Below, one piece after another: positions 2,464 through 16,057 of a DNA stretch of 26,493 bases. Every line of letters starts with the position of its first letter. Position 1 is the stretch's first letter. The DNA is from a virus: positions 1-26,493 of the IMG/VR virus record IMGVR_UViG_3300009155_000216; one strand, given 5' to 3'. The notes below the pieces were generated by a model, which did not search any database, was not told the origin of the DNA, and saw only the letters and a list, made by a program, of their open reading frames with translations. The translations under genes and the position numbers were made by a program.

Positions 2464-2649
2464 ATGCCACGACTACGGAATAACCAAGCGCCCGCCGGTG
2501 ACAAAGCACGGTTCAGCATCTTAATATCTGCGGACACCGTCGTCAGGCTGGAGGCAATGGCAGACAAAAAAGGACTCAGTCGCAATGCGTTGATAGCGCA
2601 GTTATTGGCCAAGGCGATAATGCCGAAAGCGAAGAAAGAGGCGAAGTGA
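2464..2649 (+). CDS. Small ribbon-helix-helix regulator
   Basis: A 61-residue, strongly basic protein. ARFSILISADTVVRLEAMADKKGLSRNALIAQLLAKAI has the strand, helix, Gly-Leu-Ser/Thr-Arg-Asn turn and second helix of CopG/Arc-type repressors. The strand (ARFSILIS) would sit in the DNA major groove of a dimer. The start follows AGGAGGG and is the first gene after the promoter at 2409-2436, whose -10 lies in a palindrome. Autoregulation of this promoter is a reasonable inference. The gene ends in a TGATG overlap with the GIY-YIG gene, so the two form one operon. Confidence 0.75.
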   Translation: MPRLRNNQAPAGDKARFSILISADTVVRLEAMADKKGLSRNALIAQLLAKAIMPKAKKEAK

Positions 2650-3200
2650 TGAGCTGGAAGATTTACTTGATTAAGCACCTCGACACCGATATGAAGTACG
2701 TCGGCATCACCGGTGGAGACTTGGTCGCACGCTGGGAACAACACCGCGCGGACACCAACAGCGCAGTGTACAAAGCGTTGCGCACTGAGGGCTACCGCAT
2801 GACCATGGAGCTACTCGAAGAAGTGGCTACGAAGCCCGAAGCACTCAGGAAGGAACAAGAGTACATTCAATCCCTTGGCACCGCCACGCCGGACGGATGG
2901 AATCGCAAAGTATACACGCCGTCATCACCGAAGCCGAAGAAGTGGAAAGCTATTTACGACCGGTCTGACCCTTGGAAAGAAAGTACTCTTCAATGTCAAA
3001 TTTGTAGTTATGAATACACACATATAATTTCAGTAGATTTACGCAGTAATGATGTTAGCATGACATTTTATTGTGAGCAATGTCATGTATACCCTCTTCC
3101 TCATGGTGGTGATGACCGCCCACATTCTAAGCTCTTCATTCGTCAACACAAAGGGCAGACGATGAGCGATACGGTGTACTACATCGAGGATAACTCATGA
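2649..3200 (+). CDS. GIY-YIG nuclease with a C-terminal zinc ribbon
   Basis: A 183-residue protein starting in a TGATG overlap. The N-terminal domain (residues 4-80) fits the GIY-YIG fold: KIYLIKH...MKYVGIT in place of GIY...YIG, the conserved Arg in ARWEQH (R28) and the metal-binding Glu in KEQEYI (E69). GIY-YIG enzymes cut DNA with a single metal ion and are often free-standing homing endonucleases in phages. The C-terminal part has CQIC...CEQC, a four-cysteine zinc ribbon probably used for DNA recognition. Bases about 2985-3110, which encode the ribbon, are visibly AT-rich compared with the surroundings, suggesting a domain of different origin. It overlaps the primase-helicase start (ATGA). 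Confidence 0.75.
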   Translation: MSWKIYLIKHLDTDMKYVGITGGDLVARWEQHRADTNSAVYKALRTEGYRMTMELLEEVATKPEALRKEQEYIQSLGTATPDGWNRKVYTPSSPKPKKWKAIYDRSDPWKESTLQCQICSYEYTHIISVDLRSNDVSMTFYCEQCHVYPLPHGGDDRPHSKLFIRQHKGQTMSDTVYYIEDNS

Positions 3201-6222: not shown

Positions 6223-6587
6223 TGATTGAACTTATGCTCTACCTTGCCTGCTCACTCGGCTCGTGCCACGTGGAGCCGTTGCTTGTGACGCCGGAAGCCG
6301 TCGCCGTGGCGTCGTGCGAATCAGGCGACACCGTGACCTTCGGGAGTTACTCAATGACCGCGCGAAACTCCGTCACCCACGACGGTGGGGCGTGGCAATT
6401 CAACGACGCCACCTACGTCTGGCTCAACGGCTACGACCACGCGGAGCTGGATACGCCGAAAAATCAGTACGACACCTTCGTCTATCTTTGGGACGACGGG
6501 GCCGGCTGGCGTCACTGGGCATCGTCTAAGCCCTGCTGGGCAAAGTGGTTACGAATTGATAGCACGGGAAAGGCGGTGATGAGATGA
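6222..6587 (+). CDS. Rpf-like/lysozyme-fold peptidoglycan hydrolase
   Basis: A 121-residue protein. The ATG at 6222 follows GGAGTGG with normal spacing; a GTG at 6213 lies inside that site and is rejected. After a hydrophobic N-terminus (LMLYLACSLGSC), residues 27-106 match the resuscitation-promoting-factor/transglycosylase-like layout. VAVASCESGD carries the presumed catalytic Glu (E33), GGAWQFNDATYVW corresponds to the GGLQFxxxTW substrate-groove motif, and HWASSKPCW gives the second cysteine (C105), which can pair with C32. Such enzymes cleave the glycan strand. Its place in the early block, far from the amidase and holins, is unusual. It is followed by an overlap with the dCTP deaminase gene. 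Confidence 0.7.
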   Translation: MIELMLYLACSLGSCHVEPLLVTPEAVAVASCESGDTVTFGSYSMTARNSVTHDGGAWQFNDATYVWLNGYDHAELDTPKNQYDTFVYLWDDGAGWRHWASSKPCWAKWLRIDSTGKAVMR

Positions 6588-7138
6588 TACAAAACGATAC
6601 CGAAATCAAAGCCCTGATTGACGCAGGCATGATTGAGGGTGCGGAGCTTAACCAAGTCCGCACCGGCGTTATCAGCTACGGCGTGACGTCGTATGGCTAC
6701 GATATGCGATGCGCCGATGAATGGCAATTCTTCAACCACGACAGCGCCCGAGTCATCGACCCGAAGCGGGGCAACCTGCATGAACTCATGACGGCCACCG
6801 TGGCACCGCATTTTAAGATACCGCCCAATGAGTTTGTACTGTGTCGAAGCTTAGAATACTTCCGCATCCCCAAGGACGTGCTGTGCGTGGTCGTCGGCAA
6901 GTCAACGTATGCCCGCTGTGGGCTCATCGTCAACACGACGCCGCTTGAGCCAGGCTGGGAGGGTCACGTCACCATTGAGCTAAGCAACACCGCCCCTCTG
7001 CCGATCCGTGTCTATGCAAATGAAGGCATCGCCCAGGTCTTGTTTTTTCGTGGTCGCCCCGCTGCCAAAAACTATGCAGACAAAGGTGGTAAATATCAAG
7101 GACAGCGGGGAATCACGTTGCCCAAGGTGGAGCGATGA
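6584..7138 (+). CDS. dcd: dCTP deaminase family protein
   Basis: A 184-residue protein of the dCTP deaminase/dUTPase family. It shows TGVISYGVTSYGYDMR near the N-terminus, the substrate-site stretch GKSTYARCGLIVNTTPLEPGW, EGHVTIELSNTAPLPIRVYANEGIAQVLFF, and the C-terminal YADKGGKYQGQRGI expected to fold over the active site. The Glu in PLEPGW is in the position of the catalytic general base. The enzyme turns dCTP into dUTP, or directly to dUMP in bifunctional members, and so steers the nucleotide pool toward dTTP. No thymidylate synthase is found in the genome, so the host enzyme would finish the pathway. It overlaps the Rpf-like gene by four bases. Confidence 0.92.
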   Translation: MIQNDTEIKALIDAGMIEGAELNQVRTGVISYGVTSYGYDMRCADEWQFFNHDSARVIDPKRGNLHELMTATVAPHFKIPPNEFVLCRSLEYFRIPKDVLCVVVGKSTYARCGLIVNTTPLEPGWEGHVTIELSNTAPLPIRVYANEGIAQVLFFRGRPAAKNYADKGGKYQGQRGITLPKVER

Positions 7139-7996: not shown

Positions 7997-8500
7997 ATGC
8001 CATACCCCGTCGATATTGTGCCCGCACTAAGCCAAGGCGGTGCCCGACCAATGCCACCCGAGGTCATCGTCTTGCATCACACCGGCTCGGCTGGGTCACC
8101 ACAAAGTCAGATAGAGTACCTGCGGAATAATCCCCGTGGCGTCTCGATACACTGCATCATTGCCAAGGACGGACGGCGTACTCGCATGGTCATCGATGAA
8201 CGCATCGCCTATCACGTCGGCTATAGCGTCATTGGCAGCTTGGGGAATCGCAGTCCGAACGGAATGAGTCTTGGGATTGAGATTATGAACAGCGGGTCAA
8301 AAACGGTGCCCGATCCGTACCCGCATAGTCAAGTAGATAGCACCGCCGAGCAAGTCGCTATCTGGCTTAAGAAGTGGCCAAGCATACAGATGATTACGCC
8401 ACACGCTGGGATTGATACGCAAGGCAAATACGACCCCTACGCTTTTCCGTGGGATGTCTTTTGGCAGTTACTGAGTTTACACATGGGAGTAACAGGATGA
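7997..8500 (+). CDS. N-acetylmuramoyl-L-alanine amidase (endolysin)
   Basis: A 167-residue single-domain amidase_2/PGRP enzyme, the likely endolysin. It cuts the bond between N-acetylmuramic acid and the stem peptide. Residues VIVLHHTG carry the first zinc ligand (H27). SIHCIIAKDG and YHVGYS line the groove, MSLGIEIMN is the central strand, and TPHAGIDTQGKYDP gives the second His (H136), catalytic Lys (K144) and third ligand position (D146), as in T7 lysozyme-type enzymes. There is no signal peptide or separate wall-binding domain, so release should depend on the holin. The start is set by GGGAGG. It is first in the late block and overlaps the XhlA-like gene by ATGA. Confidence 0.92.
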   Translation: MPYPVDIVPALSQGGARPMPPEVIVLHHTGSAGSPQSQIEYLRNNPRGVSIHCIIAKDGRRTRMVIDERIAYHVGYSVIGSLGNRSPNGMSLGIEIMNSGSKTVPDPYPHSQVDSTAEQVAIWLKKWPSIQMITPHAGIDTQGKYDPYAFPWDVFWQLLSLHMGVTG

Positions 8501-9299: not shown

Positions 9300-10410
9300 C
9301 AGCGCCCGGTTCCGTATGTTCATCGGCGGTCGTGGCTCAGGCAAGACGAGGGCTGGCGCAGTGGAAGCGTTGCGCCAGCCGGAGGGATCGCTTGGCCTCA
9401 TCATTGCCCCAACGTATCCGATGCTTAAGCTCGGCGCCATGGAGACTATCTTGAGTCTCGTGGCGTCGGCGGGCATCGCCACGTCGTGGAATAAGAGCGA
9501 CAAAGAACTGCGCTTGCTTGGTGACCGCACCATCATCTTCCGCAGTGCCGACAATCCCGACGCCTTGCGTGGTGCCAATGCGTCGTGGCTGTGGCTGGAC
9601 GAGGCGGCGATGATGACTGACACCACCTGGCCAACATCCATCGCTACCCTTCGTCGTGCACCGGGTCGGGCATGGGTCACCACGACGCCACGTGGCAAGA
9701 ATTGGCTGTACGACGTGTGGCAAAGTGGTGGCGAAGACTACACCGTGACCCAAGCCAAATCCACGGATAATCCGTATCTTCCAAGTCACTTCATCGAGAC
9801 ACTTCGTCAGTCAATGACAAGCGAGATGTACCGCCAAGAAGTTGACGGTCAATTCATTGACCCCATCGGTGCAATGTTTCAACGTCACTGGCTCGGCGTG
9901 GTACCTCGTGCGCCGGAGGGTCTCAAGTGGTTTCGGTATTGGGATCTCGCCGCCTCCACCAAGACAAGCGCAGACTACACCGCCTCCATCCGTGCTGCCC
10001 TTGGTGATGACGGCGTGGTCTATCTTGACGCAGGCATTCACATGAAAGCGGAGTGGCCAGACGTCCGCAAGGTCATCGTGTCAACGATGCACAGCGAAGC
10101 CGGCACGCAGGTCGGCATCGAAGAAGCGATACACGGCTTGGCCGCCATTCAGGAACTGCGCCGTATGCCGGAGATATCCGGCGTCACCCTCAAAGGAATC
10201 AGGGTTGACAAAGATAAGCAAAGCCGAGCGATGCCGTGGGCGGCGCGTGCTGAGGGTGGTAAGGTGCGCTTGGTCGCCGGCGCATGGAATAGACAATTCA
10301 TCGACGAGGTCGTCGGCTTCCCCTCATCGCCACATGACGACTACGTAGACGCCGCCTCGGGCGCCGTGGCGATGATGAGTAAGCCAAGAGTATCATGGGG
10401 GTTTGCGTAA
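9190..10410 (+). CDS. terL: Terminase large subunit
   Basis: The packaging ATPase and nuclease, 406 residues from the ATG at 9190. Walker A is GGRGSGKT (46-53), Walker B is LWLDE (134-138), and the coupling motif is TTTPRGKNW. The C-terminal RNase H-like nuclease has YWDLAAST (first Asp), VYLDAGIH, GIEEAIHG and SSPHDDYVDAASGAVAMM with the last acidic residues. The protein would pump DNA into the prohead and cut it. The true start is uncertain. A GTG at 9247 would also keep the conserved TQTRAQQRFWSDSARFRMF stretch, while an ATG at 9316 would lose it. The overlap with the small subunit is therefore real, at 53 bases or more. Confidence 0.93.
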   Translation: MSLRPLLLPTTQSTSACPPVTIRHTTQTRAQQRFWSDSARFRMFIGGRGSGKTRAGAVEALRQPEGSLGLIIAPTYPMLKLGAMETILSLVASAGIATSWNKSDKELRLLGDRTIIFRSADNPDALRGANASWLWLDEAAMMTDTTWPTSIATLRRAPGRAWVTTTPRGKNWLYDVWQSGGEDYTVTQAKSTDNPYLPSHFIETLRQSMTSEMYRQEVDGQFIDPIGAMFQRHWLGVVPRAPEGLKWFRYWDLAASTKTSADYTASIRAALGDDGVVYLDAGIHMKAEWPDVRKVIVSTMHSEAGTQVGIEEAIHGLAAIQELRRMPEISGVTLKGIRVDKDKQSRAMPWAARAEGGKVRLVAGAWNRQFIDEVVGFPSSPHDDYVDAASGAVAMMSKPRVSWGFA

Positions 10411-12422
10411 TGCCAATAGTAGGCTATCCCGGCTGGGTTGATGCCCTTCGTAACGGTGAGGCACTGACATCAACCATCGATGGGTATAACTCCGTGCCGA
10501 TGTTGTACCGTGCCGTGAATCTACGGTGCGATGCCATTAGCTCCGTGCCGTACCACATCATGCGAGACGGTACCGAGATTGAATGGCCATGGGCACAAAG
10601 TTTTACCCAGCTCATCAAAGAGACCGAGCGGGCTTTGCTGCTGACGGGGTCGGCGTTTTGGCTCAAGCTCAAAAAAGGCAACGTGTTGACGGGGTTTCAA
10701 GCCCTGAATCCGCAGACCGTCACCGTCAAATTTGACGCCAGCAAAGCAACGCCGGGTAATCCCTTTGCGGGTGTGACGTTTACTCAGCAGTTCCGCGGTA
10801 TGACCTTCGGGCCATGGACGGTTGACGACGTCGTCTACTTCCGTGAACCGTCGATGACTGACGAAGTCGGGCCCGGTCTTCCACCGGCACGCGTCGCCTT
10901 GCAGAGTGCGCAACTTGCCCACTACTTGGAGCGCTTTGCAAGCCACTTCTTCGAAGGCGGTGCGCAACCGGTGACCATTATGAATCTACCTGAGAATATG
11001 GACGAAGCGGAGTTCCAACGATTTAAAGGAGAATGGGGGAAATTCAGTGGAGTGGTCAACGCGTTTCGCACCGCCTTTGTGCGCTCACCCGAAATCAAAG
11101 CGACGGTCATCACGCCGCCGATCAAAGACCTCATGTTACCTGAATTGCAAGAGCGCGTAGTTACTACCATTGCAATGACGCTGGGCGTACCGCGTACCAT
11201 GCTTGAAGCCAGCGCCGCCAACTATGCGACCGCAGACTCCGACCGTCAAAGTTTTTGGCGAGAGACGATTGTGCCACGGCTTAGCTTGTACGAACACGTA
11301 ATCAATACGCAACTCTTTGCGCCCATTGGCTACGAACTTGTCTATCACCCTGATGAGCTTGACGTCATGCAGGCCGACGAAGCCGCCCGCGCTGGCTCAC
11401 TTAAGATGTTAGTCGAGGCAGGGATGCCGCTCCGTGGCGCAATGCAAACGCTGGGTTATAAGAACATCGAAGAGACCTTGGCGATGACGGGGCCAGAAAC
11501 CGTGGTGCCCGAGGTCGTAGCATTGCCCACCCAAGTCGCCGACAATGTGGAACCGACGTCGGCTGCACTGCGCTCCGTAGACTGGGCGCTACTGTCAAAA
11601 AAATTAGAACGGCGCATTAAGGCAGGGAAGTCGCCGTGGTGTGACTTCGATAGCGCCGTTATCTCTGCCGACGAAGTAAAGTCTGTAATGGCACGGATTG
11701 GCCACGATGCCACGGTGTCCGACGTGGTGCGTATCGTCGCCGAGGTCAAAGCCGTTGACGATATGACCCCGAATGAGCGACGCATCTACAACGCCATCGC
11801 ACCGGAACTCGCCAAGCGGGGCGCTACGTGGGCACGGCAAATTACCCAGAACAAAGAAGTAGACCCGACGCTTAAAGACGTCATCGCCCCGGTGTTAAAC
11901 GCCGAGCTGGCAACGCAGATGGGTAAGCGCATCGACACGCTGGGGACACAGTTTAGTATCCCTATGGATACCGGCGAAGAGTCACAGCGGATCACTGACT
12001 GGCTTAGCGACTACGTGCCAAAACTGACCACACGCATAGACCAGACGACGGCAGACCGTATCAAGCCCATCATCGAAACCTACCGCACCACGCCGGGTAT
12101 GACGATAGACGATGTCACGGCGATGCTATTGCCGTTATCTGACGCCGCACGGTCTCGCATGATAGCCGTGACCGAGACGACGCGGGCGGCGGCGCAGGCC
12201 ACGGTGGAATATCAGCAGTATTTAGGCAAGGCGGGGATTACCATGATTCGCGTATGGAACACCGATGCCGACGAAAAGGTGTGCCCGATATGCACCGGCG
12301 AAGCCTACGGGGTTGACCTTAACGGCATGACCGAGGATGATTGGCCAACAGAAGTCGCCAGTGGCCCGCCTGCCCACGTGAACTGTCGCTGTGATACGTC
12401 GTTGCGCTTGGTGCGCCCATGA
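10410..12422 (+). CDS. Portal protein fused to a MuF-type minor head domain
   Basis: A 670-residue fusion. The ATG at 10410 shares a base with the terminase stop (TAATG) and follows GGGGG, so an in-frame ATG at 10395 is rejected. Residues 1-370 are an HK97-type portal (YNSVPMLYRAVNLRCDAISS, LLLTGSAFWLKLKKG, LPPARVALQSAQLAHYLERF, MLEASAANYATADSDRQSFW), the ring through which DNA passes. A helical linker follows, then a C-terminal MuF-like domain ending EKVCPICTGEAYG...PPAHVNCRC, the CPxC...H.NCRC pattern of Mu gpF/SPP1 gp7-like proteins. MuF domains are usually a separate gene directly after the portal; here they are joined with no stop. The next gene overlaps by ATGA. Confidence 0.9.
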   Translation: MPIVGYPGWVDALRNGEALTSTIDGYNSVPMLYRAVNLRCDAISSVPYHIMRDGTEIEWPWAQSFTQLIKETERALLLTGSAFWLKLKKGNVLTGFQALNPQTVTVKFDASKATPGNPFAGVTFTQQFRGMTFGPWTVDDVVYFREPSMTDEVGPGLPPARVALQSAQLAHYLERFASHFFEGGAQPVTIMNLPENMDEAEFQRFKGEWGKFSGVVNAFRTAFVRSPEIKATVITPPIKDLMLPELQERVVTTIAMTLGVPRTMLEASAANYATADSDRQSFWRETIVPRLSLYEHVINTQLFAPIGYELVYHPDELDVMQADEAARAGSLKMLVEAGMPLRGAMQTLGYKNIEETLAMTGPETVVPEVVALPTQVADNVEPTSAALRSVDWALLSKKLERRIKAGKSPWCDFDSAVISADEVKSVMARIGHDATVSDVVRIVAEVKAVDDMTPNERRIYNAIAPELAKRGATWARQITQNKEVDPTLKDVIAPVLNAELATQMGKRIDTLGTQFSIPMDTGEESQRITDWLSDYVPKLTTRIDQTTADRIKPIIETYRTTPGMTIDDVTAMLLPLSDAARSRMIAVTETTRAAAQATVEYQQYLGKAGITMIRVWNTDADEKVCPICTGEAYGVDLNGMTEDDWPTEVASGPPAHVNCRCDTSLRLVRP

Positions 12423-12891: not shown

Positions 12892-13320
12892 ATGAACGAC
12901 TTAATTACCACGCTTCGCACGTTGCTCGCTCAGACCCTCTTCGCCTACTACAAGGCGCACGCCTCGCATTGGAATGTCACCGGCGCCGACTTTCCGCAGT
13001 ACCACGAATTCTTAGGCGATACCTACCAAGAACTCTTCGACGCCATCGACGCCATCGCCGAGATTATCCGAAGCCTTGGATTCAAAGCGCCGGCGACGCT
13101 TGCCACACTTGCCACGATGCAACCCATTGACCCGGCGACGGAAGACGACACGTTACCCATGATGATTACTCAGCTCAAGGCGACGAACGACCTCATCATG
13201 GTGACGGTGCGCCAAGGAATCACACAATCAGACACCGAGCCAGCGGTGCAAAACTTTTTGCAAGACCGCTTGATGGCGCATCAAAAACTCGGCTGGATGC
13301 TTAGCGCAATTTTGTCCTAG
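12892..13320 (+). CDS. Dps-like ferritin-fold protein
   Basis: A 142-residue four-helix protein of the Dps/ferritin family behind TAGGAG. It contains KAHASHWNVTGADFPQYHEFLGDTY, which is the Dps signature HW-N-x-x-G-x-x-F-x-x-x-H, followed by FDAIDAIAEIIRSLG. Compared with E. coli Dps, H26, H38, D53 and E57 fall at the spacing of ferroxidase ligands H51, H63, D78 and E82. The position of D67 is Gly42, with Asp43 beside it. Dps proteins store iron by using up peroxide and can coat DNA. The gene lies between head genes, one base-pair step from the HiPIP-like protein, so a virion or head-assembly role is possible; free cytoplasmic protection of DNA is the alternative. Confidence 0.82.
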   Translation: MNDLITTLRTLLAQTLFAYYKAHASHWNVTGADFPQYHEFLGDTYQELFDAIDAIAEIIRSLGFKAPATLATLATMQPIDPATEDDTLPMMITQLKATNDLIMVTVRQGITQSDTEPAVQNFLQDRLMAHQKLGWMLSAILS

Positions 13321-13328
13321 GAGGAATC

Positions 13329-14465
13329 ATGGCAGACAGCTACATACCACCGGCGTCGGTCGCTGAGAACGCACGGCGAGCGCTCGACATCCGCAAAGCC
13401 AAGCCACCATCACAGCGTGGCATGACACCGGTCGGCATTGCGAGGGCGACGCAGTTGGCGAGTCGCAGTCCGGTATCGCTTGACACGATACAGCGCATGG
13501 CGTCGTACTTTGCTCGCCACGAAGTCGACAAAGAGGGGTCGACGTGGGACGAGCAAGGCAAGGGCTGGCAAGCATGGCACGGCTGGGGTGGCGACGAAGG
13601 ACGCACGTGGGCAAACAGTATTTTAGCAAAACAGGAGACGAAGATGGAAAAGTCCTTCAAAGCCGGGTCACGGCATAGCGCCGCCGATCAGCAACTCATC
13701 GCCAAAAGCTACGGCTATGCTAAGTCAATGATGGAAACCATGGTGCAACTCGGTCACGCCGAAGTTGACCCCGACCCCGCAAAGGCAGTCAAAGTGCTGA
13801 CGCCGGAGGGACTGAGCCCACGCCAAGACGCCATGGTCGCCGCCTATACGAACATCGTGACAACGTCGGGGAAGTTTAGTACCGGCATCAGCGAAAGCGG
13901 CGCCCACTACTGTGCGGACTCACCGTGGGACGACGAAGGCATGGTCTGCGCGAACTGTGTCTTTTACCAAGGCGGGGCGTGTCAGCTCGTTGAGGGCACG
14001 ATTGACCCTGAGGGAATTTGTAAGCTATGGGTTATCCCGGAAAAGTCCTTAGTGATGGCAGCGCTTGAGCCGATGCCCGAAGACATGGGCGACATGATGA
14101 TGGACTATGCAGTGGACGACATGAAAGCCATCGAGGACCGCAACACCACACCCAAGGAACGCGAAGCCATGCCTGCAGGCGACTTTGTATTCCCCGATAC
14201 CCGCAACTTTCCCATCGTCACGCCGGGCGATATCAGTGCGGCGGTGTCGTCATGGGGTCGCTACGGTGGGACGGAGTCCTTCGACAGTTTCAAAGAGAAA
14301 CTCATCGCCCTCGCCAAGCGCAAAGGGCAAAACTTCGTCGACGCCTTGCCCCAAGCATGGCTGGACGAGATGACCGCAAAGTCGACCCTTGACACCCCCC
14401 TGACAATAGAAGTAGGGGACGAAGTTAAGGCTTTGGCCCGTCGCTTACTCGGAGTAGCACAATGA
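13329..14465 (+). CDS. Multi-domain head protein with HiPIP-like four-cysteine motif
   Basis: A 378-residue protein behind TAGGAGG. Three parts are visible. Residues 8-100 are a basic domain (VAENARRALDIRK; GIARATQLASRSPVS; RMASYFARHEVDK) of a kind seen in phage structural clusters. Residues 190-240 contain C207-x2-C210-x7-C218-x12-C231, the layout of a high-potential iron-sulfur protein-like motif found in other phage proteins (CVFYQGGACQLVEG; EGICKLW). Residues 285-335 form a small helical domain (DFVFPDTRNFPIVTPGDISA) also common in phages, of DUF6582 type. The middle is methionine- and acid-rich. It probably serves head assembly, perhaps as a scaffold. The 25-bp repeat copy 2 lies inside the 3' end. 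It overlaps the capsid gene by ATGA. Confidence 0.6.
   Translation: MADSYIPPASVAENARRALDIRKAKPPSQRGMTPVGIARATQLASRSPVSLDTIQRMASYFARHEVDKEGSTWDEQGKGWQAWHGWGGDEGRTWANSILAKQETKMEKSFKAGSRHSAADQQLIAKSYGYAKSMMETMVQLGHAEVDPDPAKAVKVLTPEGLSPRQDAMVAAYTNIVTTSGKFSTGISESGAHYCADSPWDDEGMVCANCVFYQGGACQLVEGTIDPEGICKLWVIPEKSLVMAALEPMPEDMGDMMMDYAVDDMKAIEDRNTTPKEREAMPAGDFVFPDTRNFPIVTPGDISAAVSSWGRYGGTESFDSFKEKLIALAKRKGQNFVDALPQAWLDEMTAKSTLDTPLTIEVGDEVKALARRLLGVAQ
14386..14410 (+). repeat. 25-bp exact repeat, copy 2 (inside a gene, before the capsid gene)
   Basis: Identical to 7954-7978. Here it is translated, giving STLDTPLTIE near the end of the HiPIP-like protein, and it ends 51 bases before the capsid fusion ATG. 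Exact conservation at the base level in one coding and one non-coding place points to a DNA or RNA signal rather than a protein constraint. Confidence 0.75.
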
Positions 14466-16057
14466 CCGACTTTGTAAAATCCTACGGCAGCGGAGTCAAG
14501 GCGGTAGGCGACTACACCTTACAGGGTCGTGGCATCGTCTACGGCGGGCAAGACCTTACCGGCGACCGCTTTACCAAGACGACCGACCTCGGCGATACCC
14601 GGAGCTTTGTCGGTACGCCGGTCTATTACGACCACGGGCTTAGCTCAATCCGTGGTCAAATCGGCACGGTCAAAGCATGGACACCGGTCGGCGACGGCAT
14701 CGACGTACAGATTGAGTTAGACAAGCGCCTCGACTACATTGACGAGGTTATGGCGTTGGTCAAGAGTGGCGCACTGGGACTCAGTACCGGCGCACTTAGT
14801 CACCTCGTGGTACGTCAGAATGGCGAACTCAAGCGCTGGGTCGTCGGCGAAATCTCTCTGACTCCAACTCCAGCGGAACCTCGGACTCTTACCGAAGTGA
14901 AGGCAACTCAGGACGGCACCGTGCGCACTGCGACGGCGACGTTGAGCCCTAGCGATACAACCTCAACCAATAACACTAAAGGAACTTACAACGTGGAAAA
15001 CATCAACCAAATCGTACAAGACGCCGTCGTGGCAGCGCTCAAGAACGTCGCCGGCACCCCCGTCGAAGGCGGCGTGATGACTGCGCCTGCTACCAAGACC
15101 GTGACGAGCCGTGGCTTCAGCAACGAGCCGAACGAAGCCCTCAAGTACTACCTCAAGACCGGCGACCGCATCGCCGCCAAAGCCACGCTCGCCGAAGGGT
15201 CAAACAACACCGGCGGCTTCTTGGTACCTACTGACCTCTACGACCAAATCATCGCCCGCCGTGACGAACAGAGCCTACTCGGCGCATTTAACATTCGCCG
15301 CATTGTCACCGGCGAAAAGTCCATCGTCGTACCTGGCCAAGACACCAAGGGCTCCTTTGCCATCGTTGCGGAATCAGGGTCGGCTAATTTCTCAGAGCCC
15401 AACTTTGCAAACAGTCGCACAATCACCACGTACAAATACAGCTTGGCGATGAAAATCACCAACGAACTCTTGACCGACGAACGCAGCAACTTGCAAAGCT
15501 TCCTGACTCAGGAAATCGCACGCGCCTACGCCCAAGCAGTGAATAGCTTCATCATCACCGGCACCGGCTCAAGCCAGCCCTACGGCATCTTGGCTCGCGC
15601 ATCAAACAGCGTCACCGCAGCCAGCGCCACCGCGGTCACTTTCGCCGAAGTAAGCCAGCTCGAGTACACCGTACCCGGCGCCTACATGACCGGCGGAAAC
15701 GACGTGGGCTGGATTATGAAGAACTCAACCCTTGGCAAGATTCGCGCCTTGACCGGCAACTATCCTCAGTTCATGCCGTTGTCAACCAACAGCATCAGCG
15801 GGAAAACCGGTAACCTCCGCGACCTCGACGGCTACCCTGCGTTCACGTCTGAGTACACCCCAGCCATGACCACGGGCTTGAAGTCAATCATCTTCGGTAA
15901 CATGAACTACTACAACTTCGTCGAAAACGGTCAACTCGAAATCAAGCGCAACGACTCGTTGTACATGGCCACTGACGAAATCGGATACTTCTGTTACTTC
16001 CGTGCCGGCGGCGATGTCAATCAAGGCGAAGCCTTCGCATACCTCGTCCAAGCTTAA
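14462..16057 (+). CDS. Prohead protease fused to HK97-fold major capsid protein
   Basis: A 531-residue fusion in ATGA overlap with the upstream gene, with GGAG before the start. Residues 1-141 are an HK97-type prohead protease: GRGIVYGGQDLTGD, the catalytic His in VYYDHG (H58), the catalytic Ser in LGLSTGA (S108), and VGEISLTPTPAEPRTL. A Thr/Ser-rich linker (142-177) follows. Residues 178-531 are the major capsid protein, with a short helical delta-like segment, EGSNNTGGFLVPTDLYDQII, the N-arm and E-loop region, a P-domain (LTDERSNLQSFLTQEIARAY) and the A-domain (GTGSSQPYGIL; RDLDGYPAF). Protease and capsid are usually separate genes. An internal start at 14993 can supply capsid protein alone. 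Confidence 0.93.
   Translation: MTDFVKSYGSGVKAVGDYTLQGRGIVYGGQDLTGDRFTKTTDLGDTRSFVGTPVYYDHGLSSIRGQIGTVKAWTPVGDGIDVQIELDKRLDYIDEVMALVKSGALGLSTGALSHLVVRQNGELKRWVVGEISLTPTPAEPRTLTEVKATQDGTVRTATATLSPSDTTSTNNTKGTYNVENINQIVQDAVVAALKNVAGTPVEGGVMTAPATKTVTSRGFSNEPNEALKYYLKTGDRIAAKATLAEGSNNTGGFLVPTDLYDQIIARRDEQSLLGAFNIRRIVTGEKSIVVPGQDTKGSFAIVAESGSANFSEPNFANSRTITTYKYSLAMKITNELLTDERSNLQSFLTQEIARAYAQAVNSFIITGTGSSQPYGILARASNSVTAASATAVTFAEVSQLEYTVPGAYMTGGNDVGWIMKNSTLGKIRALTGNYPQFMPLSTNSISGKTGNLRDLDGYPAFTSEYTPAMTTGLKSIIFGNMNYYNFVENGQLEIKRNDSLYMATDEIGYFCYFRAGGDVNQGEAFAYLVQA
14993..16057 (+). CDS. Nested start giving the major capsid protein alone
   Basis: Within the fusion, GTG at codon 178 (14993) is preceded by AAAGGA at 14978-14983 with a 9-base gap, a good ribosome binding site that lies exactly at the linker-capsid junction. 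The product would be 354 residues, beginning MENINQIVQDAVVAALKN, the normal size of an HK97-type capsid protein. This would let the phage make many capsid subunits and few protease-capsid fusions from one frame, like the nested C/Nu3 genes of lambda. The use of this start is inferred. Confidence 0.55.
   Translation: MENINQIVQDAVVAALKNVAGTPVEGGVMTAPATKTVTSRGFSNEPNEALKYYLKTGDRIAAKATLAEGSNNTGGFLVPTDLYDQIIARRDEQSLLGAFNIRRIVTGEKSIVVPGQDTKGSFAIVAESGSANFSEPNFANSRTITTYKYSLAMKITNELLTDERSNLQSFLTQEIARAYAQAVNSFIITGTGSSQPYGILARASNSVTAASATAVTFAEVSQLEYTVPGAYMTGGNDVGWIMKNSTLGKIRALTGNYPQFMPLSTNSISGKTGNLRDLDGYPAFTSEYTPAMTTGLKSIIFGNMNYYNFVENGQLEIKRNDSLYMATDEIGYFCYFRAGGDVNQGEAFAYLVQA

Follow-up and report, generated by a model that had tools for sequence, protein, structure and literature searches.

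Organization of the fused gene and its surroundings

The window, i.e. the whole stretch of DNA that was analysed, is a 26.5 kb virus contig from IMG/VR. It carries a gene in which a putative prohead protease and an HK97-fold major capsid protein are joined in one open reading frame by a variable linker, with a predicted Shine-Dalgarno (SD) sequence and start codon at the joint (Table 1). The 4-nt ATGA overlap between the start of the fusion and the upstream stop, an arrangement typical of coupled translation, is found in 49 of the 74 relatives that have sufficient flanking sequence. SD strength is given throughout as the duplex energy (dG) to the anti-SD ACCUCCUUA, with a cut-off of ≤ -5 kcal/mol. 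The ORF located directly upstream of the fusion (13329-14465), of unknown function (phrog_2859), has an SD of -10.2 kcal/mol at its start, the strongest among the start sites checked.

The head module around the fusion is ordinary and siphovirus-like, with a terminase, a portal protein with a MuF domain, a head-tail connector and a tape measure protein. The Mu F-like domain lies at the C-terminus of the portal ORF 10395-12422 (PF04860 and PF04233). Between the genes of the portal and capsid proteins lies a Dps/ferritin-like gene (12892-13320; PF00210, E 1e-20; phrog_3636, 'DNA binding protein'); a DNA-protection protein is unusual at this location. Upstream of the head module are found genes for a homing endonuclease-like protein (2646-3200), a dCTP deaminase (6584-7138) and an endolysin/amidase (7997-8500).

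Table 1. Features of the protease-capsid fusion gene and of its joint, in coordinates of the window.
Feature	Position	Strand	Evidence
Fused prohead protease-major capsid protein gene, 531 aa	14462..16057	+	open frame ATG to TAA; fused in 78/78 sequences
ATGA overlap of fusion start with stop of upstream ORF 13329-14465	14462..14465	+	4-nt overlap, likely translational coupling
Putative prohead protease domain, residues 1-147, S78/HK97 type	14462..14902	+	PF04586 matches in relatives; predicted fold
Putative catalytic His58 codon	14633..14635	+	invariant in 35 aligned relatives
Putative catalytic Ser108 codon	14783..14785	+	invariant in 35 aligned relatives
Variable Thr/Ser-rich linker, residues 148-177	14903..14992	+	divergent, in-frame indels among relatives
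AAAGGA, predicted SD of internal start	14978..14983	+	SD-like site in 78/78, two codon phases
GTG, predicted internal start codon, residue 178	14993..14995	+	ATG/GTG in 78/78, ≤8 codons from the column
Predicted short product, 354-aa major capsid protein	14993..16057	+	inferred from conserved internal start
Predicted helix 181-197, start of short product	15002..15052	+	AlphaFold model, low confidence here
HK97-fold capsid domain, residues 251-528	15212..16045	+	PF05065 (Phage_capsid) E 9e-43; Foldseek to R. capsulatus GTA capsid E 4e-13

Identity of the protease and capsid domains

In addition to its Pfam and structural matches (Table 1), the capsid part is matched in PHROGs by phrog_10, major head protein. 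The N-terminal domain of the window is too divergent to give any Pfam match, including to Peptidase_S78 (PF04586), and its match to the PHROGs family 'major head and protease protein' is weak (E 0.006-0.011). Among the relatives, PF04586 is matched by 16 of 35 N-terminal domains (best E 4e-5), one of which (L080), with 21.2 bits, lies just above the gathering score of 21. The residues H58 and S108, which are invariant across the 35 aligned domains, correspond to H85 and S137 of the RcOceanus protease in a profile comparison based on shallow alignments, whose probability is low (1.4%, E 0.037). The predicted model of the domain has a pLDDT of 68; its top named matches in BFVD are prohead or head maturation proteases (E 1.5e-10), and solved structures give weak matches only, including T4 gp21 (E 0.08) and herpesvirus proteases. 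Altogether, sequence and predicted fold identify the N-terminal ~147 residues as a putative prohead protease of the S78 (HK97) type. The first-pass annotation, which had placed a protease with H58 and S108 and an HK97-fold capsid protein in one frame, is thereby confirmed.

A related domain, 33% identical to that of the window, is located within the C-terminal half of an ORF of 847 aa in Salinibacter phage 15_1 (L093 2306-4846). This ORF is followed by a separate 461-aa ORF and the pair looks like a portal-protease fusion and a separate capsid gene.

Conservation of the fusion and of a predicted internal start at the joint

The family of the window (W family) was defined from two scans of viral contigs as 78 non-redundant sequences that span the joint (the window and its relatives), which share 43-100% amino acid identity and fall into 10 clusters at 70%. 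It is known so far solely from metagenomes. None of the 78 sequences, including those of contigs from other samples, carries a stop or a frameshift between the protease and capsid parts. A sequencing error hiding a stop, envisaged in the first-pass annotation, is thus rejected, because all the relatives are fused and open through the joint. The linker itself varies both in sequence and, by whole codons, in length.

The positions of AAAGGA and of the GTG, their spacing of 9 nt and the 354-residue length of the capsid protein that would start there were all as first annotated. An in-frame ATG or GTG preceded by an SD of dG ≤ -5 kcal/mol is found at the joint in all 78 genes and in 10 of 10 clusters, the latter being the better count since relatives share ancestry. 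The start codon lies in the joint alignment column in 91% of the family and a few codons downstream in the remainder, for example 6-7 codons downstream in the L072 group (GAGGAG ACC AAA GCC ATG). By comparison, the next-best conserved start-codon column has a mean SD dG of -3.1 kcal/mol and reaches the cut-off in 1% of cases. Start codons with such an SD represent 0.8% of the codons elsewhere in the W-family genes, and 8.5% of random 14-codon windows taken elsewhere in these genes contain a start and an SD (8.5-13% of control windows from the same genes in three fusion families). A chance occurrence of the SD at the joint is therefore rejected by its conservation, 78/78 against 8.5% of control windows.

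The SD core occurs in two codon phases (36/42). It is written as AAA GGA (Lys-Gly), A AAG GAA (Lys-Glu), CAA GGA or ACA GAG GAC, so that the encoded dipeptides differ (KG, KE, QG, ED). Therefore, it is the DNA motif that is conserved, not the peptide. The start codon likewise alternates between GTG and ATG within the family. In the members that start with GTG, the glycine codon of the SD is GGA, which encodes 9% of the glycines in those genes.

The same site in other fusion families

About 80 loci were fetched for each of two other fusion families, the RcOceanus type and the Circum/1706 type (Arthrobacter phage Circum, Lactococcus phage 1706). In the RcOceanus type, an ATG is present at one column in 74/74 sequences, with an SD ≤ -5 kcal/mol in 72/74 and an SD core that uses all three codon phases (26/26/22); the internal SD is better than that of the annotated first start (-7.6 vs -5.4 kcal/mol). 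In the Circum/1706 type, ATG, GTG or TTG is found at Circum residue 242 in 75/75 sequences, with an SD ≤ -5 kcal/mol in 74/75, equal in strength to that of the first start.

Examination of individual phages reveals an SD and a start at or near the joint in Maggie (M160), Circum (M165 and M242), RcOceanus (M214) and RRH1 (M274), and at the joint in Gordon, Qui, GMA5, Schiebs, Berka, PensacolaC28 (GTG) and McGonagall. Root (AAGGAA, with a longer spacing) and Atraxa (GAGAGG) have SD-like sites, and that of Yavru is weak. In Lactococcus phage Q54, ATG144 lies behind AAAGAGG at the joint. The family of Pseudomonas phage MD8, whose protease is of the ClpP type, keeps ATG220 with an SD in 13 of 13 representatives; this is weaker evidence, since the local amino acids are conserved along with the SD. 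Furthermore, Circum residue 551, located inside the conserved capsid fold, also has a good SD score, so SD energy alone can mislead where the protein is conserved.

This raises the question of whether it is for the sake of the protein that the residues before or at the joint are conserved, for example as a K/E/G-rich cleavage site, the SD-like DNA being a by-product. Pairs of a charged residue with a following G or E are indeed common just before the joint, and the MD8 family taken alone cannot separate amino acid conservation from SD conservation. In the W family, shuffling synonymous codons gene by gene with the amino acids fixed fairly often leaves SD-like scores and gives no significant result (mean P 0.28). 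However, such a shuffle takes Lys-Gly or Lys-Glu as given, although the SD itself shapes those amino acids; the codon-phase and cross-family tests were used in its place. They reveal that one DNA motif, suitably spaced from the start, underlies 21 different tetrapeptides in the W family and 35 in the RcOceanus family, that all three codon phases occur, and that ATG, GTG and TTG, i.e. Met, Val and Leu, alternate at one site. A constraint on the protein is thus a very unlikely explanation. The argument for an internal start is based on an SD that is kept in a variable linker, at a domain border, with a shifting codon phase and alternating start codons, in several families.

Another explanation is that the full-length fusion is the sole product, bringing one protease per capsid subunit and releasing itself at the linker, the SD-like site being inert. 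It agrees with the frame being open in all W-family sequences, with a linker that looks cleavable and with Gordonia phage Emperor (L192), which manages without an SD at the joint. However, it leaves unexplained why 78/78, 72/74 and 74/75 sequences have an in-frame start and an SD at one site, in varied codon phases. Given what is known of HK97 assembly, it would also crowd the lumen with hundreds of proteases per shell. A full-length fusion as the only product is therefore considered improbable.

Some side observations concern these families. In Emperor, a clear SD and ATG immediately precede the protease domain, which suggests that gene 10 has been annotated with a start too far upstream. Circum-type fusions, including L203, may have a further internal start ahead of the scaffold region, the candidates being Circum M165 (L095 8036-10012), M191 of a human faecal phage (SD -12.2 kcal/mol) and GTG171 of 1706; three nested products are therefore possible in some members. 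The C-terminal domain of Circum gp12 (residues 589-654; L095 8036-10012) recurs in a downstream gene in about ten loci, and in Circum this downstream copy is in gp15 (11317), the major tail protein.

Exchange of the two halves at the joint

The protease and capsid halves of some members differ strongly in their relatedness to the window. L030 shares 90% identity with it in the protease half against 47% in the capsid half, whereas L007 shares 72% and 87%, respectively. In L039 and L042, the identity switches at the start codon itself. The halves have thus been swapped between lineages near the joint, which therefore behaves as a module border.

Comparison with known systems

Protease-capsid fusions have been described in phages of Arthrobacter (clusters AM, AU and AN) and Rhodococcus (RRH1) (PMC5513430), of Microbacterium (EE, EL and others) (PMC7302621) and of Rhodobacter (RcC phages) (PMC8601537). 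Pseudomonas phage MD8 encodes in one gene a triple protease-scaffold-capsid fusion, gp5, with a protease of the ClpP type (PMC8508860). The first-pass annotation regarded the two proteins as usually encoded by separate genes; this holds for HK97, but the view of the fusion as unusual needs correcting, as it has been described in several phage groups. The accessible text of the actinobacteriophage and RcC reports gives one fused product (PMC5513430, PMC7302621, PMC8601537); neither that text nor the passages covered of the MD8 paper (PMC8508860) mention an internal start, the term 'internal start' being absent from PMC7302621 and the word 'internal' from PMC5513430. A search of the full-text literature, in which subscription journals are thinly covered, found no internal start in a protease-capsid fusion, and no solved structure that might show the N terminus of the capsid protein was found for RcOceanus, Gordon or Maggie.

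Like the gene of the window, the fusions of actinobacteriophages (Maggie, Circum, Gordon, RRH1, EE/EL) and of RcC phages encode in one frame the protease first and an HK97-fold capsid protein second, but they belong to different sequence families. MD8 shares with the window a one-gene fusion with a start codon (ATG220 in MD8) and an SD at the joint, whereas its ClpP-type protease has an unrelated fold. Genes 4 and 5 of HK97 resemble the window in that an S78-type protease lies beside a capsid protein of the HK97 fold whose N-terminal region is scaffold-like; however, they are two separate genes, whereas the window carries one fused gene.

Separate and adjacent protease and capsid genes elsewhere, such as those of HK97 (PMC8508860), could suggest that two once separate genes fused recently by loss of a stop codon and left the internal start as a relic. 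Such a relic would decay, whereas the start and its SD persist down to 43% identity despite the turnover of the linker, and in several families. A recent fusion is thus an extremely unlikely explanation of the internal start.

The closest parallel in operation is provided by the C and Nu3 genes of lambda. C encodes an N-terminal protease followed by an assembly protein, and a nested 3' gene makes the second part alone by means of an internal start. Lambda differs in that its nested product is a scaffold, its capsid protein E has a gene to itself and its protease belongs to the ClpP/S49 type; in the window, the predicted nested product is the capsid protein. Therefore, the gene of the window would operate in the manner of C/Nu3 without belonging to that group.

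One gene for two probable nested products

Sequence comparison establishes that the fusion, the active-site residues, and the internal SD with its start codon are all conserved. It strongly supports initiation at the joint, and the separate capsid protein proposed in the first-pass annotation gains the same support from the conservation in 78/78 sequences and from unrelated fusion families. The gene thus very probably encodes two nested products, the full-length fusion and a short capsid protein.

For initiation itself, the ratio of the products, their co-assembly and cleavage, we infer the following scheme. Initiation at ATG14462, which overlaps the upstream stop, would yield the 531-aa protease-capsid fusion, and initiation at GTG14993, guided by AAAGGA, the 354-aa capsid protein as the main shell subunit. 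The two forms would co-assemble through their common capsid part, so that a fraction of the subunits would carry a protease, and the prohead lumen would receive fewer proteases than subunits. The capsid part would thereby tether the protease inside, as proposed in the first-pass annotation. There, the protease would cleave the shell proteins in their short N-terminal region and free itself by cutting the linker. The predicted helix 181-197 is likely to be a short delta (scaffold-like) region of the short product.

The low protease-to-capsid ratio that had been expected from this arrangement finds no backing in SD strength. The SD of the internal start in the window (-5.6 kcal/mol, GTG) is not stronger than that of the first start (-6.1 kcal/mol, ATG), which is at least as good by sequence; therefore, the sequence does not predict an excess of the capsid protein, and SD strength failed as a predictor of the product ratio.

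Implications for tailed phages

The fusion of protease and capsid protein was known already, and the conserved internal start appears to be unreported in the literature searched. It is reasonably probable that such fusions are, as a rule, dual-product genes across tailed phages, that the internal start is kept or acquired at the joint and sets the protease-to-capsid ratio, and that the joint is a border for the exchange of capsid modules. This generalization covers S78 and ClpP-type proteases in phages of Arthrobacter, Gordonia, Rhodococcus, Rhodobacter, Lactococcus, Pseudomonas and uncultured aquatic hosts.

As an answer, the conserved internal start can be tested in phages already in culture. 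It also implies that the capsid protein of these phages carries a wrong annotated start. More broadly, the nested protease gene known from lambda would be extended from scaffolds to the shell protein itself.
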